Positions 18,254-30,756 of a stretch of DNA of 52,630 nucleotides are shown here, piece after piece. The stretch lies in NCBI RefSeq assembly GCF_027319265.1, contig NZ_DAHVNP010000024.1, forward strand, positions 1 to 52,630. The letters run 5' to 3'. The translations under genes were made by a program, and so were the position numbers. This DNA is from Ferrimicrobium sp. (GTDB taxonomy: Bacteria; Actinomycetota; Acidimicrobiia; Acidimicrobiales; Acidimicrobiaceae). The notes beneath the pieces were generated by a model. That model did no database searches. It was not told where the DNA came from and saw nothing but the letters and a program-made list of their open reading frames with translations. Each line of letters begins with the position of its first letter. Within the stretch, counting starts at the first letter, position 1.

Positions 18254-19273
18254 GTGAAGTATCGTATTGCCGTGGTCGGCGGAGACGGCATTGGACCAGA
18301 GGTGACCCGAGAAGCCTTGAAGGTCGCCCGGTCGGCCGGTGCAGTCTTGGAGACCCAGGAATTTGAACTCGGCGCGGCTCACTACGAGCACACCGGTGAG
18401 GTGCTGGGTGACGAGACGCTAGCGGAGCTCATGAGCTTTGATGCCATCCTGCTCGGAGCTATCGGCCCTGCCATCGGTTCAACCACAGTCCCCTCGGGCA
18501 TACTCGAGCGAGGTCTGCTGTTGCGTCTCCGCTTCGCTCTCGATCTCTACATCAACCAACGCCCCTTCCTTACCCTCGATCCGAGCGTTACCATCACCCA
18601 CAAACCCGTTGATATGGTGGTTATTCGTGAGAATACGGAGGGTGCCTACACTGGCGAAGGCGGGCTCCTGCGCAAGGGAACCGCCTACGAAGTGGCCACC
18701 CAGGGCTCAGTAAACACCCGCAACGGAGTCGAGCGAGCGATTCGCTTTGCCTTCGATCTCGCCCAAACAAGAGAGCGCAAGTTGCTCACGCTCGTACATA
18801 AGACGAACGTCCTCACGTACTCCGGGGATTTGTGGTATCGAACCTTTCTTGAGGTCGCGGCGGAATATCCGGCCGTAACGACCAGCTATAACCACGTTGA
18901 TGCTGCTTGCATCTATCTTGTCGAGGCGCCAGAACGTTACGACGTGGTGGTCACCGACAACCTCTTTGGCGACATACTGACCGACTTAGCCGCCGCGGTC
19001 TCCCAAGGTATTGGTTATGCGGCCTCGGCGAATATCAACCCCGCACGCACAGGCCCCTCGCTCTTTGAACCGGTGCACGGTGCAGCACACGACCGCGTCG
19101 GGACGGGTCAGGCAAACCCCTACGCGGCCATCAGGTCGGCAGCGATGATGCTCGCCTTCCTTGGAGAGACAGCAATCGCCACAAAAATCGAACACGCACT
19201 GACGGTTTTGCCCCCTTCGGGTGCAACGACCGCCGAAATAGGTGATTTCTACGGAGAAAGGGTAGCGCACTAA
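18254..19273 (+). CDS. leuB: 3-isopropylmalate dehydrogenase (GTG start)
   Basis: 339 residues of the beta-decarboxylating dehydrogenase family. It oxidises 3-isopropylmalate to 2-oxoisocaproate and, with cimA present, probably also 3-methylmalate to 2-oxobutyrate. Motifs: GGDGIGPEV at the N terminus, LERGLLLRLRF with the substrate Arg residues, VTDNLFGDILTDLAA with the metal-binding Asp residues, and LFEPVHGAAHD. The overall pattern matches actinobacterial LeuB. The GTG start follows a GGTGGA stretch. Its stop codon overlaps the ilvE ATG (TAATG), and cimA follows, so the operon joins leucine and isoleucine steps. Confidence 0.93.
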   Translation: MKYRIAVVGGDGIGPEVTREALKVARSAGAVLETQEFELGAAHYEHTGEVLGDETLAELMSFDAILLGAIGPAIGSTTVPSGILERGLLLRLRFALDLYINQRPFLTLDPSVTITHKPVDMVVIRENTEGAYTGEGGLLRKGTAYEVATQGSVNTRNGVERAIRFAFDLAQTRERKLLTLVHKTNVLTYSGDLWYRTFLEVAAEYPAVTTSYNHVDAACIYLVEAPERYDVVVTDNLFGDILTDLAAAVSQGIGYAASANINPARTGPSLFEPVHGAAHDRVGTGQANPYAAIRSAAMMLAFLGETAIATKIEHALTVLPPSGATTAEIGDFYGERVAH

Positions 19274-20203: not shown

Positions 20204-21784
20204 CTGCGTCACGTTGCTATCTACGATACGACCCTACGAGATGGGTCCCAACAGGAGGGCATCGCCCTCACCGTTGAGGACAAGCTGCGTGTTGCCCGCC
20301 AGCTCGACATTCTTGGGGTACAGTTCATCGAGGGGGGTTGGCCGGGGGCCAATCCGAAGGATGCGGCGTTCTTTACCCGAGCATCCGATGAGCTGAACCT
20401 CCACACTGCCCAGCTGGTAGCCTTTGGCTCAACCCGCCGCGCAAATGGGGATGTCAACAGTGACCCTAATCTCCAGGCTCTCGTAGATAGTGGCGTCACT
20501 CACGTCTGCATCGTCGCCAAGGCCTGGGATTACCATGTAGTGCACGCACTTCGCACCTCCCTCGAAGAGGCACTTGCCATGGTGCGAGATTCGGTCTCCT
20601 TTTTGACCAACCATGGTTGCCACGTGCTGCTCGACGCTGAGCACTTCTTTGACGGATTCAAGGACAATCCGACCTTTGCGCTCTCGGTCCTTGATGCTGC
20701 CGAGGAGGCCGGAGCAACAACACTAGTACTCTGCGACACCAATGGCGGAACCCTGCCATCAGAGGTTCCCGCGATCATGAGCAGTGTCAACGAACGTGTG
20801 GGGCTTCCCATCGGAGTCCATTTTCACAACGACTCCGGCTGCGCCATAGCGAACTCCCTCATAGCCGTTGATCTCGGAGCCAGCCAGGTGCAAGGGTGTG
20901 TCAACGGCTACGGAGAGAGGACGGGTAATGCCAACCTTGTCCCCATCATCGCGGCACTCTCGCTCAAACAGGAGATCGTCACCATCCCACCCCACAATCT
21001 TGAACTCCTCACCTCCACCGCCCGTCACATTGCAGAGATCACCAATCTTCCACTCGCTCCACAATCTCCCTATGTGGGCGCGTCTGCCTTCACCCACAAA
21101 GCCGGCCTCCATGTCAGCGCCATCGCAAGGCGCAGTGACGCCTATGAACACATCAATCCCGAACTCGTCGGCAACCATAGTCGCTTTGTCGTGTCAGAGA
21201 TGGCGGGTCGTCAAACCCTCCTGATCAAAGCTGGGGAACTCGGGCTCGAACTCACCGACGACGCGACTACCTCGCTGCTCCAGCGCCTGAAGGATCTCGA
21301 ACATCAGGGATATCACTTTGAAGTCGCAGATGGCTCACTGGAACTGCTGATGCGCCATGCTCTCGGCTGGACCCAGCCCTATTTTCATGTGGAGTCCTAT
21401 CGGGTGACGACCGACGGCTATCACGGACCTGAGCTGCTCACCGAAGCGACCGTGAAGGTGCAGGTACGCGGCCAACGCATCATCGCTACCGCTGAGGGGA
21501 ATGGACCTGTCCACGCACTCGATCAGGCGCTGCGACAGGCGTTGCAGACGACCTACCCCTCCCTCGCCACCATGGGGCTTGATGACTACAAGGTGCGCGT
21601 GCTTGACACCTCAAGCGGCACCGATGCCGTTGTCCGGGTCCTCATCGACTTCTCCGACACTGAGACACAGTGGACGACCACGGGAGTCTCCACCAACATC
21701 ATCGAGGCGTCGTTTTCAGCACTGACTGAAGGCTTCGTACTCGCACTCGTGAAAACTAGCACAACTGAAGGGAGCGCACCATGA
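20204..21784 (+). CDS. cimA: Citramalate synthase (probable CTG start)
   Basis: About 526 residues. It condenses pyruvate with acetyl-CoA to (R)-citramalate, opening the threonine-independent route to isoleucine. DTTLRDGSQQEG (residues 8-19) is the cimA/LeuA2 form of the motif; HFHNDSGCAIANS and NGYGERTGNANL follow, and the C terminus is a LeuA-type regulatory domain. The conserved N terminus begins upstream of the first ATG (20540). In that frame, between the last upstream stop (20189) and the DTTLRDG motif, there is no ATG, GTG or TTG. CTG at 20204 lies 8 nt behind AAGGG and is the best candidate. Confidence is high for function, moderate for the start. Confidence 0.88.
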   Translation: MRHVAIYDTTLRDGSQQEGIALTVEDKLRVARQLDILGVQFIEGGWPGANPKDAAFFTRASDELNLHTAQLVAFGSTRRANGDVNSDPNLQALVDSGVTHVCIVAKAWDYHVVHALRTSLEEALAMVRDSVSFLTNHGCHVLLDAEHFFDGFKDNPTFALSVLDAAEEAGATTLVLCDTNGGTLPSEVPAIMSSVNERVGLPIGVHFHNDSGCAIANSLIAVDLGASQVQGCVNGYGERTGNANLVPIIAALSLKQEIVTIPPHNLELLTSTARHIAEITNLPLAPQSPYVGASAFTHKAGLHVSAIARRSDAYEHINPELVGNHSRFVVSEMAGRQTLLIKAGELGLELTDDATTSLLQRLKDLEHQGYHFEVADGSLELLMRHALGWTQPYFHVESYRVTTDGYHGPELLTEATVKVQVRGQRIIATAEGNGPVHALDQALRQALQTTYPSLATMGLDDYKVRVLDTSSGTDAVVRVLIDFSDTETQWTTTGVSTNIIEASFSALTEGFVLALVKTSTTEGSAP

Positions 21785-26467: not shown

Positions 26468-27043
26468 TTACGATACTCTTCCCTTTCTCGGTCGACGTGT
26501 CGGTTTTGGTAGCTTGCTAAGAGCAATCCTACCGGTTCGTTGCAGCTCAATCAGACCAAACTCAGCTAGGAATGCCTCGACGTCGTCAAGCTTCTCTGGA
26601 GAGAGCGCGAAGACCACGGTCAATCGATCCATCGAGACGTCGATGATCTCACCATGGAAAATCTCTACCAGCTCCATCACCTTCGCGCGGGCACCCGCCT
26701 CCGCATTAATCGTTGCGAGCATACACTCATATTCGAGTGCATCCACTGGGTCAATCTCGGTAATTTTGATGACATTGATCAACTTATGCAGTTGCTTCGT
26801 AATCTGCTCAAGTGGCACTGTCTCGACGTCGACCACAATGGTGAGACGCGAAAAGCGCTCGTCGTCAGTAGGTGCCACGGCTAGCGAGTAGATGTTAAAG
26901 CCGCGTCGGGAGAAGAGCAACGCCACCCTAGCAAGCACGCCCGCCCGGTTCTCTACCAACACACTCAGGATATGATGGCGGCCCTCCACTGGGGGACGAA
27001 TCGATCCAATTGGGACGAGGTTCGATGATCGCTCCGCCATCAT
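26468..27043 (-). CDS. ilvN: Acetolactate synthase small (regulatory) subunit
   Basis: 191 residues. The N-terminal ACT domain (HILSVLVENRAGVLARVALLFSRRGFNI in two parts) binds valine and gives feedback control; the C-terminal half is the ALS_ss_C domain. The ATG overlaps the ilvB stop (ATGA), so the subunits are made in step, and the stop directly abuts the ilvC ATG. A second ATG three bases further on could also be used. Confidence 0.95.
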   Translation of the reverse strand: MMAERSSNLVPIGSIRPPVEGRHHILSVLVENRAGVLARVALLFSRRGFNIYSLAVAPTDDERFSRLTIVVDVETVPLEQITKQLHKLINVIKITEIDPVDALEYECMLATINAEAGARAKVMELVEIFHGEIIDVSMDRLTVVFALSPEKLDDVEAFLAEFGLIELQRTGRIALSKLPKPTRRPRKGRVS

Positions 27044-28746
27044 CGACTCCGCTGCTGGTGTGGGGGCAACACGATGTCATCATTTGGTGCGCCGGCCGGC
27101 ACCATCGGATAGACCTTTTCGAAGGTGTCAACCCGAAAGTCGATCACTACCGGTCGGTCATCGATCTGGTTCGCCTTCTCAATGACCGGGTCAACTTCAC
27201 TGACCTGATCGACACGGAAACCAACCGCACCCATCGCCTCAGCCCACTTGACATAGTCAGGCAGATCGGGTGAGAGAAACACCTCGGAGTAACGCTCCTC
27301 GTAGAACATCTCCTGCCACTGGCGTACCATGCCAAGATAACCGTTGTTCAAGATAGCAACCTTGATTGGGATGCGTTCCGCCGTCGCCGTCACTAACTCC
27401 TGCGCCGTCATCTGGAAACATCCATCCCCATCGATGGCCCAGACCGTACTCTGAGGACGGCCGGCTTTTGCGCCGATCGCCGCCGGCACAGCAAAACCCA
27501 TCGTTCCGAGCCCTCCGGAGTTGATCCAGGAGTTCGGCGACGCAAACTGGAAGTACTGTGAAGCCCACATCTGGTGCTGTCCAACACCCGAAGCCACGAC
27601 GGTGTCGGCCGGTGCGAGCGCCGAGATTCGTTCAACGACATACTGAGGTTTGATAGCCGCACCGGGCAACGAGGGTTCATAGGAGTAGGGATACTGCTCC
27701 TGCCAGGCGTGCAGTTGGGCGACCCAGGCTGAGAGATCCGCCCCTTTGGCGGGCAGGTGCCGCGTAATCTCTGGAATCACCGACTTTACATCCCCGACAA
27801 TTGGAACATCGGGACGACGCACCTTACCCAGTTCAGCCGGATCGATATCGACGTGGATAATGCGCGCCTTAGCCGCAAAGGCATCCACCTTTCCAGTCAC
27901 ACGGTCATCAAAACGAGCTCCGAGTGCGATCACCAAATCAGCCTGTTGCAGCGCCGTCACCGCAGTGAAGTTGCCATGCATGCCGGGCATACCAAGGCAG
28001 AGCGGATCGGAGTCAGGCAGCACTCCCCTCGCCATCAACGTCGTCACCACTGGGATACCGGATCGATCGACCAGCGCCCGCAGCTCCGCTGCAGCCTTGC
28101 CACGGATCAACCCGCCACCTGCATAGATAATCGGCCGTGTGGCCCCCGCAATCATGGCAGCCGCCTGCTCAATCATCTTGGCGTGCCCCTTGACCGTCGG
28201 CTGGTAGCCGGGCAGATCGAGCCGGCGCGGCCAGTACCACTCCATCGTATCGTTCGCCACGTCTTTGGGGAGGTCGACCACGACTGGTCCAGGTCGACCT
28301 GTCGTCGCGACATGGAAAGCCTCAGCAATCACACGCGGGATATCGCTAGCCTTGGTAATCAACCAGTTGTGCTTGGTCACCGACATCGTAATCCCTGTGG
28401 TATCAGTCTCTTGAAAAGCATCGGTACCGATCGAAGTTGTCGCCACCTGCCCAGTGATCACCACAATCGGTATCGAGTCAACGTAGGCGTCGGCGACGGC
28501 GGTGACGATATTGGTGGCCGCTGGACCACTTGTCACAATAGCCACACCTGGCTTCCCAGTCGCCTGTGCAAACCCTTCCGCAGCATGGCCGGCACCCTGT
28601 TCATGACGAACCAGAATATGCCGGATCGGCGACTCCAAAAGGGGATCATAGACAGGGAGAATCGCCCCACCAGGGAGGCCAAATACCGTCTCTACCCCTT
28701 GCATCTCAAGGGATTTAATCAACGCCTGTGCTCCGGTTAACTTCAT
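27040..28746 (-). CDS. ilvB: Acetolactate synthase large (catalytic) subunit
   Basis: 568 residues, ThDP-dependent. It joins two pyruvates to acetolactate, or pyruvate and 2-oxobutyrate to acetohydroxybutyrate. GLPGGAILPVYDPL and the catalytic Glu in HEQGAGHAAEGFA lie in the first domain; the ThDP-Mg motif runs from GDGCFQM to NNGYLGMVRQW near the C terminus. An ATG at 28761 is in frame, but GGAGGAGACGATC before the ATG at 28746 identifies that start. The leader peptide MTIRRALVVLLR and two hairpins lie 82-174 nt upstream, so control by branched-chain attenuation is likely. Confidence 0.96.
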   Translation of the reverse strand: MKLTGAQALIKSLEMQGVETVFGLPGGAILPVYDPLLESPIRHILVRHEQGAGHAAEGFAQATGKPGVAIVTSGPAATNIVTAVADAYVDSIPIVVITGQVATTSIGTDAFQETDTTGITMSVTKHNWLITKASDIPRVIAEAFHVATTGRPGPVVVDLPKDVANDTMEWYWPRRLDLPGYQPTVKGHAKMIEQAAAMIAGATRPIIYAGGGLIRGKAAAELRALVDRSGIPVVTTLMARGVLPDSDPLCLGMPGMHGNFTAVTALQQADLVIALGARFDDRVTGKVDAFAAKARIIHVDIDPAELGKVRRPDVPIVGDVKSVIPEITRHLPAKGADLSAWVAQLHAWQEQYPYSYEPSLPGAAIKPQYVVERISALAPADTVVASGVGQHQMWASQYFQFASPNSWINSGGLGTMGFAVPAAIGAKAGRPQSTVWAIDGDGCFQMTAQELVTATAERIPIKVAILNNGYLGMVRQWQEMFYEERYSEVFLSPDLPDYVKWAEAMGAVGFRVDQVSEVDPVIEKANQIDDRPVVIDFRVDTFEKVYPMVPAGAPNDDIVLPPHQQRSR

Positions 28747-28827
28747 GATCGTCTCCTCCATGCATACGTACTAGCAACGCCAAAGCCAATAGTTCTCTGA
28801 GCGGGCATCCTCACGAGCGTAGATACG

Positions 28828-28854
28828 AAAAGACCTCCCGCGAAGGGAGGTCTT
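28828..28854 (-). terminator. Attenuator terminator hairpin upstream of ilvB
   Basis: A 10-bp stem, AAGACCTCCC with GGGAGGTCTT, loop of about 5 nt, then TTCG on the minus strand. The T tract is short, so the terminator may be of medium strength. It lies between the leader peptide and ilvB, 82 nt before the ilvB start. Confidence 0.8.
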
Positions 28855-28882
28855 GGGCACGACGCAGCGAAGAGCCGTGCCC
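28855..28882 (-). promoter_or_regulatory. Leader hairpin 1 of ilvB attenuator
   Basis: GGGCACG and CGTGCCC form a 7-bp stem with a long partly paired loop. The 5' arm begins within the TAG stop of the leader peptide, and the terminator hairpin follows with no gap. The layout equals that of the leuA leader. Confidence 0.75.
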
Positions 28883-28920
28883 TAACGAAGGAGTACTACC
28901 AGCGCGCGTCGAATAGTCAT
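28882..28920 (-). CDS. ilvB leader peptide MTIRRALVVLLR
   Basis: A 12-codon frame from ATG to TAG, 27 nt behind the ilvD stop. Five of its last six sense codons are Leu or Val (L-V-V-L-L), as expected of an ilvBN leader, and its stop touches hairpin 1. It has exactly the length of the leuA leader. There is no Shine-Dalgarno; a TANNNT hexamer (TATGCT, 28928-28933) ends 7 nt before the ATG, which would fit a leaderless RNA. CTACC stands before the ATG as in the leuA leader. Stalling at Val and Leu codons is inferred. Confidence 0.8.
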   Translation of the reverse strand: MTIRRALVVLLR

Positions 28921-28947
28921 AGAAGGTAGCATACCCAGTCTGAAGGG

Positions 28948-30633
28948 CTATCCGCCAGTTACCGCTCCAATATCTGCCCCTTTGACCAAAAGAGCATACT
29001 TCCCAAGCGCTCCCTCGGTATAGCGCGCGGGTGCCGGAACAAAAGCTTGCCGTCGGAGCTCCAGCTCTGTCTCATCCACCAGCAACTCGATCGAGTGGGT
29101 GGGAACATCGATCACGATTCGGTCACCATCACGGATCAGACCGATAGGTCCACCATCGGTGGCTTCAGGCGCAACATGGCCGATGCAGAACCCGTGTGTT
29201 CCACCAGAGAAGCGGCCATCAGTGATCAAAGCAGCATCGTGACCACGTCCAGCACCCTTCATCGCCCCTGTTACCGCCAACATCTCACGCATCCCAGGCC
29301 CCCCTTTGGGTCCCTCGTAGCGAATGACCACCACATCCCCAGACCGGATCTCCCCGGCGAGAATGGCATCAAGTGCAGCCTCTTCACGATCAAAGACCCG
29401 GGCAGTTCCGTCAAAATGCTCCTGATCAAGACCAGCCACCTTCACAACCGAACCTGCGGGGGCAAGCGATCCACGGAGTACAGCGATCCCTCCAACTTTA
29501 TGGATCGGCTGATCATGGCGGTGGACGACCTCACCATCTGGACGCGGCGGATCATAGGCTCGCAACTCCTCGGCGAGTGTTCGTCCGGTAACGGTCAAAC
29601 AATCACCATGCACAAGGCCAGCCTCAAGGAGTTCGCCGAGAACCACCGGGATCCCGCCGATACGATCCAGATCGGTCATGTGGTACTTGCCATGGGGTTT
29701 TGTGTCAGCGAGGTGAGGGACGCGAGTCCCGACTCGATTGAAGTCATCGAGGGTGAGTTCGACCTTGGCTTCATAGGCAATAGCCAGCAGATGGAGGACG
29801 GCGTTCGTCGACCCGCCAAGCGCCATCACGACAGCAATCGCATTCTCGAAAGCTGCCTTGGTCATGATTTGGCGAGGTGTGATCCCCAACTCCAACAGGT
29901 TCATCACCGCTCGACCAGCCTCAAACGCGATGTCCTCTCGGCGACGATCAACCGCCGGTGCCGAGGCAGAACCAATCTGGGCCATTCCCAGTGCCTCCGC
30001 CACGGACGCCATCGTGTTAGCGGTGTACATCCCTGCGCAGGAACCCTTGGTGGGGCACGCGTTGCGTTCAACATCGCCAAGTCGTTGCTCGTCGATGCTA
30101 CCGGCTGCATAGGCGCCAACCGCCTCGAAGACGCTCACAATATCGAGCGTCTCCCCACGGAAGCGACCAGGAAGAATACTCCCACCGTAGACAAAGACAG
30201 AGGGGAGGTCGAGGCGGGCCGCCGCCATCATCATTCCTGGGAGCGACTTATCACAACCAGCCAAGGTCACCATCGCGTCGAAGCGCTCAGCGTGCATCAT
30301 CAGCTCCACCGAATCCGCTATCACCTCACGAGAGACCAAGGAGGAATGCATGCCTTCGTGACCCATCGAGATCCCATCCGAAACGGCAATGGTGCCGAAC
30401 TCCAGCGGCACACCGCCGGCGGATCGCACGCCGGCCTTCGCACGCTGTGCAAGATCAGAGAGCACGAGATTACAGGGAGTCACCTCGTTCCAAGAGGATG
30501 CAATGCCGATCTGAGGCTTCGAGAAGTCCTCATCATTGAGGCCAACAGCCCGCAGCATCGCCCTTGCTGGTGCTCTCCTCGGCCCCTCAGTCACCTCTTG
30601 GCTACGAATGCGAATCGACTTGGTATCACTCAT
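28948..30633 (-). CDS. ilvD: Dihydroxy-acid dehydratase
   Basis: 561 residues. Dehydrates 2,3-dihydroxy-isovalerate and -methylvalerate to the 2-oxo acids. Three cysteines for the iron-sulphur cluster are in place: [18 protein letters not shown] and [12 protein letters not shown], the pattern of the [2Fe-2S] type. The C-terminal [16 protein letters not shown] is conserved. The frame extends to 30663, but the ATG in front of [10 protein letters not shown] fits the family and has GAGGGG upstream. TACAGT appears twice upstream (near 30672-30690), a possible -10 region. It lies outside the ilvB attenuator and so may be controlled separately. Confidence 0.95.
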
Positions 30634-30756
30634 CGTTTGGTTTCCCCTCTGGTCGTAGTGCAACTGTAAGCCACTGTAGCCTCACTCGACCCTGGACGAC
30701 GCCGCGCCAGCCACGCTCTCGAAATCTCGGGAACGGACGCCGCCGCGACGAGCAGA

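Follow-up and report, generated by a model that had tools for sequence, protein, structure and literature searches.

A probable branched-chain attenuator before ilvB of Ferrimicrobium, in which no antiterminator is detected by folding or covariation

The window, that is the whole stretch of 52,630 nucleotides that was analysed, carries on its minus strand the ilvB gene for the acetolactate synthase large subunit (27040..28746; NCBIfam NF005860, 906 bits against a cut-off of 881), which likely starts at the ATG at 28746 behind a GGAGG (28759-28755), with an alternative in-frame ATG at 28761. Upstream on the same strand lies an ORF named ilvD-like by reading (28948..30663), which ends 27 nt before the ATG of a short leader. 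The leader peptide ORF, MTIRRALVVLLR (28882..28920, minus strand, 12 codons), runs from the ATG at 28920 to a TAG at 28884-28882, has CTG GTA GTA CTC CTT as control codons and is preceded by a -10-like element, TATGCT (28928..28933, minus strand), 7 nt 5' of the ATG. It is followed on this strand by hairpin H1 (GGGCACG...CGTGCCC, 28855..28882), which takes the G of the TAG as its first paired base and whose last base lies immediately 5' of a terminator stem-loop of 10 bp, AAGACCTCCC-TTCGC-GGGAGGTCTT (28830..28854), both supported by folding and by covariation of their arms. A TTTT tract (28828..28831) completes the element, its first two bases being the last two of the stem. An earlier note on this DNA had described a 12-codon ORF with Leu or Val at five of its last six codons, ending at a hairpin and followed by a 10-bp terminator-like hairpin and then ilvB; all of these parts are indeed present on the minus strand in that arrangement, and the outer limit it gave, 28933, is the first base of TATGCT. 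Absent from that note are the start of the leader hairpin within the stop codon and its contact with the terminator, the probable leaderless start, and the kin of the element before leuA, cimA and leuB.

Folding of the leader RNA gives two hairpins directly next to each other, at -40.3 kcal/mol (z -2.8); one of 200 shuffles is equally stable. A terminator scanner found the stem, but it also returned about 1.0 match per shuffled region, so that its match is at chance level and by itself is no evidence for a terminator. Only one of the six terminator-like hairpins of the window, the one before ilvB, has a hairpin flush upstream of it, and at the level of sequence an intrinsic terminator does lie between the leader and the first gene. 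A scan of the leader region for a sigma-70 site returned none. At this locus no Rfam family reaches its gathering threshold, the nearest leader family being Phe_leader (17.5 bits against 55), and the likeness to the Rfam leader families consists in a leader peptide and a terminator before amino-acid genes.

The layout exceeds chance because it is conserved in relatives and the controls are near zero. From 60 genomes of the same genus, family and order (G047 is without the N-terminal part of ilvB, and L001 is a duplicate) we collected the DNA in front of ilvB at 59 distinct loci, and a script annotated leader, H1 and terminator there in 56 of them. Three loci were dropped by the script: L029, where the leader parts are visible by eye; L034, which is the same contig as L069 of the set of named loci; and L014 (genome G007), from a member of the family, which keeps the terminator stem, has no recognisable branched-chain leader and is perhaps a decayed attenuator. 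The named set comprises 80 loci from relatives that include Acidimicrobiales, Acidimicrobiaceae, Microthrixaceae, Ilumatobacteraceae and Aciditerrimonas; one is too short (L139) and two begin inside ilvB (L076 and L099), which leaves 77 with usable upstream DNA. Of these 77, from genomes partly shared with the 59-locus set, 69 were matched by a script that required a frame rich in ILV codons, a hairpin anchored at its stop and, no more than 6 nt further on, a terminator; it matched 1/79 reverse-complement, 0/79 shuffled and 0/79 gene-body controls. Its eight misses include L066 and L104, contigs on which parts had shown earlier, and L065, which is L014 again, the locus with no branched-chain leader. 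The 33 representatives that we used for comparison span 30 genera (g3 twice, g4 three times). When the short segment from stop codon to terminator is folded, H1 starts between -2 and +2 of the last stop-codon base and is separated from the terminator by 0-5 nt, each in 56 of 56 ilvB leaders; several named loci have a gap of 6 nt, the limit of that search. The terminator stem itself occurs in at least three sequence versions (the GACCTCCC, CGCCCCTCGC and GGTCCCC types, from L074, L075, L078, L081 and L084 and from L107, L115 and L125-L130), with a similar layout throughout. The ilvB matches in three genomes (G011, G017 and G029) contain one internal stop codon, TGA or TAA.

The leader is a short ORF rich in codons of the operon's own amino acids, and its frame, on whose conservation across relatives the earlier note had let its reading depend, is conserved. 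The last seven codons are ILV codons in 278 of 392 cases in frame, against 50, 60 and 11 in the +1, +2 and -1 frames; the ORF was picked by a score favouring ILV codons, yet its stop falls at H1 and the contrast is large. Valine is encoded by GTA in 111 of 148 leader cases (75%) compared with 8% in ilvB bodies; such rarity is what one would look for in a sensing codon. In 54 of 56 leaders the longest ILV run begins at least four codons ahead of the stop, and 98 of the 111 GTA codons sit 3-5 codons before it, so that H1 would be largely free during a stall and masked with the ribosome at the stop. The window leader holds Leu and Val codons, and the codons of the relatives' leaders suggest that these would sense Ile as well. 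In 49 of 56 relatives a hexamer of the A2/T6 type stands 6-8 nt ahead of the start codon, against a mean of 8.9 and a maximum of 17 in shuffles; the choice of start used a score that includes the -10 box, and a single in-frame ATG or GTG candidate, counted 8-30 codons before the stop, exists in 30 of 56. Words resembling a Shine-Dalgarno sequence stand before 4 of 56 leaders and, as aligned, before 22 of 56 ilvB starts, a modest contrast. With a -10 box 6-8 nt before the start and no Shine-Dalgarno sequence, the leader transcript is probably leaderless. Words resembling -35 (at least five of six matches) were found in 16 of 56 relatives against 1.7 expected, while the same search gave no good -35 in the window genome. 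These regularities bear on one dismissal of the element, namely that the terminator merely ends transcription of the upstream gene, or constitutively trims that of ilvB, and that the short ORF is fortuitous. The leader does lie only 27 nt past the upstream ORF in the window genome; however, among the relatives listed it stays with ilvB even where the sequence in front of it is not the same, it keeps a conserved frame rich in ILV codons, and sister leaders follow the pathway, all of which makes this explanation very improbable.

These sister leaders came from a covariance model, R1, which pairs the terminator only, so that its matches rest largely on sequence. With E 0.01 as the limit it matched 92 of 119 genomes from the class. 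Many genomes carry further matches, a few of which are merely the mirror image of a terminator. All of 20 hand-picked further matches (L239-L258; E 2.4e-9 to 0.0048) precede branched-chain genes: leuB in ten cases, leuA in five, cimA (citramalate synthase) in four and ilvB in one, with nine gene identities agreeing with NCBIfam and the rest assigned by positions or by reading of the N-terminus. A direct leader search at the best-scoring loci found leaders before 21 of 29 leuA (29 of 30 loci, the partial L288 being excluded), 4 of 30 cimA (30 of 54) and 8 of 30 leuB genes (30 of 58), with 0 in gene-body controls. The longest ILV runs sum to L81 V3 I1 at leuA, I15 at cimA and I22 V9 L2 at leuB; that is, leuA leaders have Leu runs, cimA leaders Ile and leuB leaders Ile/Val, all in the design of the pre-ilvB leader. 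That the control codon agrees with the pathway of the gene behind it is, to us, the best indication of a sensing role for the codons, and leaders with exchangeable control codons in the relatives read as an attenuator regulon. At these other genes the gap between H1 and terminator is 0-7 nt, with 6-7 nt in 3 of 21 leuA leaders. A search by script for a Trp-rich leader with a terminator found none at 30 trpE loci (41 of 45 genomes matched). In the window genome R1 matches only the ilvB copy at E 0.01. On its plus strand the window also contains leuB (18260-19264) and a gene for citramalate synthase (20213-21751), separated by an ORF that may encode a branched-chain aminotransferase; by reading, the window's own leuB has no attenuator before it, unlike that of some relatives.

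Where, then, is the antiterminator? The remark in the earlier note that none was clear by eye now extends to folding (56 sequences) and covariation (33), neither of which detected one. For folding we placed the ribosome at the stop or at the control codons, with an assumed footprint to +12, and took as cost the energy penalty when pairs between the left and right terminator arms are forbidden. On stalling this cost falls by up to 16.1 (thr), 10.3 (trp), 8.4 (leu) and 15.9 (ilv) kcal in E. coli leaders, and by only 1.6 kcal in hisL, which the test misses (four of five detected, T-run rule). For the ilvB leaders, 56 in number, the fall has a median of -1.6, i.e. the cost rises; a fall of at least 5 kcal was seen in 0/56 ilvB, 1/21 leuA, 1/4 cimA and 0/8 leuB leaders, and sequestration of the left arm goes up by more than 0.3 upon stalling in 4 of 56 ilvB leaders. 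Covariation was measured on matched against permuted duplexes for 28 region pairs in the 33 sequences, and only the arms of H1 (z -12.2) and of the terminator (z -9.2) covary, the next best pairing reaching z -1.9; the arms were delimited by folding, which favours these two. With the left arm set by the stop codon instead, H1 still has 7.36 pairs (maximum 8) against 6.42 in permutations (maximum 6.85), and in 32 of 33 sequences its stability relative to shuffles is at z -2 or lower. Two particular candidates were rejected: an antiterminator formed by the H1 loop and leader, whose complementarity to the terminator arms has z about 0 in the 33 sequences and does not covary, and boundary sharing of the C. 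glutamicum kind, since competition of at least 1.5 kcal over the first 2, 3, 4 or 5 bases occurs in 0, 2, 1 and 2 of 56. Because no antiterminator exclusive with the terminator and formed on stalling was found by folding or covariation, the element appears to work like an attenuator, and we do not file it as a classical one. A classical attenuator whose base-paired antiterminator, for instance in the form of a C. glutamicum boundary overlap or a pseudoknot, escaped these tests is nevertheless conceivable. It would have precedents in the C. glutamicum ilvBNC model, where adjacent hairpins share a GCC trinucleotide with support from mutants (PMC11857589, partial text), and in M. tuberculosis ilvB1, for which a mutually exclusive antiterminator was proposed (PMC13236596, partial text). 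Apart from the blind spot at hisL, forbidding the base of the terminator lets its first four bases find some upstream partners in 21 of 56; in the window, a bulged pairing of UU before H1 with AA at the base of the terminator can be drawn by eye; and losing the terminator costs less than 5 kcal in 1/56 ilvB, 4/21 leuA, 1/4 cimA and 4/8 leuB leaders. Set against the absence, in the ilvB leaders, of any stalling effect of the size seen in four of five E. coli leaders, the near absence of boundary competition and the lack of a third covarying pairing, this makes a hidden antiterminator unlikely in our view.

How could such an element switch? The architecture, the frame, the codon bias, the matching sister leaders and the absence of any other covarying pairing are shown by this analysis, and the branched-chain attenuator with leader peptide that the earlier note proposed gains its support from conservation over 30 genera, from the statistics of frame and codons and from the pathway-matched sister leaders. 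Feedback needs a ribosome at the stop codon to mean OFF and a stall upstream to mean ON, and since H1 is the only conserved structure that differs between these two ribosome states, it must carry the ON signal or recruit its carrier. The lowest pairs of an intrinsic terminator close within the RNA exit channel, where there is room for about five to six bases, and a rigid helix nearer than this to the 5' base of the terminator should hinder the closure. We therefore consider it fairly probable that the pre-ilvB element is a ribosome-mediated transcription attenuator, probably leaderless, which senses charged Val- and Leu-tRNA and uses contact by H1 as its switch. RNA polymerase would start at or beside the ATG and be followed by the ribosome. 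With branched-chain amino acids plentiful, the ribosome would reach the stop codon, cover about 12 nt downstream and keep H1 open, so that the terminator would fold on a free 5' flank and transcription would end. With these amino acids scarce, the ribosome would stall upstream in the Leu/Val run and H1 would close; lying 0-5 nt from the terminator base, it would hinder closure of the lower pairs in or near the exit channel, and the hindered terminator would let the polymerase read into ilvB. The leaderless start, the stalling and the direction of response would here be as in established attenuation, and H1, opened by the ribosome at the stop codon, is probably the switch itself; that it would act by contact and not by pairing is the least supported part of the model. 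By folding energy the terminator wins wherever the ribosome stands, so that there would be no switching if contact had no effect. The evidence for contact is weakened by gaps that reach 6-7 nt and, at one locus (L168), 10 nt, and we count against our best explanation the poor -35 of the window and the four leaders with increased left-arm sequestration. Adjacent hairpins described as termination sites also point against contact (PMC8355165, partial text), and we found no paper on a flush upstream hairpin blocking a terminator.

H1 could alternatively be a pause hairpin that synchronises polymerase and ribosome, with the decision left to coupling between the two or to a protein such as NusA, NusG or Rho. 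A polymerase stands 10-12 nt past a pause hairpin, and H1, which has the size and place of one, would thus halt it inside the left arm of the terminator. The loops, however, vary among relatives and pausing by itself selects no outcome, for which reasons we hold this version to be quite unlikely and prefer the contact switch. If the latter is true, it would be a simple way of coupling translation to termination. The exchange of control codons (Val/Leu, Leu or Ile) gives immediate predictions of specificity, and this two-hairpin module of about 100 nt is a case where covariation, and not the eye alone, allows the antiterminator to be called missing.

Ribosome-mediated branched-chain attenuators have been described in Corynebacterium, Mycobacterium and Streptomyces; our comparisons with Corynebacterium ilvB-II and M. 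tuberculosis rest on published descriptions. Corynebacterium was covered by Narunsky et al., 2023 (PMC10272879) and Ryabchenko et al., 2025 (PMC11857589), both cited here from partial texts. Its ilvBNC leader, the ilvB-II motif, is alike in having CUU and GUA control codons before ilvB and neighbouring hairpins of which the last is an intrinsic terminator; its start codon is one base from the transcription start, comparable to the leaderless start that we suppose here (PMC10272879, PMC11857589). In contrast, its ORF covers most of the first hairpin and its antiterminator and terminator share a boundary trinucleotide (same sources), whereas in the window and its relatives H1 begins at the stop codon and overlap with the terminator at shared bases was found in none of the 56 ilvB leaders. 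The ilvB-OMG motif, likened by description, has leader peptides rich in branched-chain and Thr codons (PMC10272879, in part). The M. tuberculosis ilvB1 leader shares LVVI codons with GUA, a Rho-independent terminator and codon mutants tested by reporter, and differs in its 166-nt length and mutually exclusive anti-terminator; in this 2026 study mutation of the LVVI codons abolished drug-induced upregulation (PMC13236596, available portion), a result that speaks in favour of our best explanation. Streptomyces has a leaderless MRTRILVLGKRVG before ilvBHC and Leu runs before leuA and leuS, the S. lividans leaders being treated in PMC8079986 (partial text; also PMC1262725). Unlike the leuA leaders of our relatives, which carry a terminator, that of Streptomyces leuA has a pseudoknot element and no typical terminator, as far as these sources extend. 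Codon changes in the S. coelicolor ilvB leader were without effect (cited in PMC1262725), which counts against our best explanation. Seliverstov et al., 2005 reported, for three genera, terminator-bearing ILV leaders upstream of ilvB and regarded their mode as unclear (PMC1262725), and actinobacterial branched-chain leaders were then described as attenuators with parts missing. A literature search found no description of an attenuator or leader peptide in Acidimicrobi, and the available parts of PMC2965389 and PMC11109978 do not mention an Acidimicrobium or Acidimicrobi leader. The regulator is thus of a familiar kind; the searches turned up no description of it from this lineage, and it is a variant of that kind in that a defining part, the antiterminator, was not found.

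A scan of the phylum gave 76 matches, of which 68 were read and 66 were usable; the script found no leader in 53 of the 66 and a leader in 13, two of them in the same order, two in the same class, eight outside the class and one (L201) a chance match inside a gene. Plasmid records contained nothing resembling the 291-base leader stretch. The eight loci outside the class have a stop-anchored hairpin with gaps to the terminator of 0, 4, 1, 4, 10, 0, 0 and 0 nt, the 10-nt gap being that of L168. Tentatively, and as something possible rather than probable, we propose a module without base-pair competition, in which H1, gated by the ribosome and separated from the terminator base by less than the length of the exit channel, would prevent termination by contact. 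With its codons exchanged it would serve four genes (ilvB, leuA, cimA and leuB) in Acidimicrobiales, and in other classes within the phylum it would serve ilvB of some members. At three ilvB loci outside the class (L170, L173 and L174) a stop-anchored hairpin of 11-12 bp is flush with a terminator-like hairpin that has a weak T tract, and termination there may differ.
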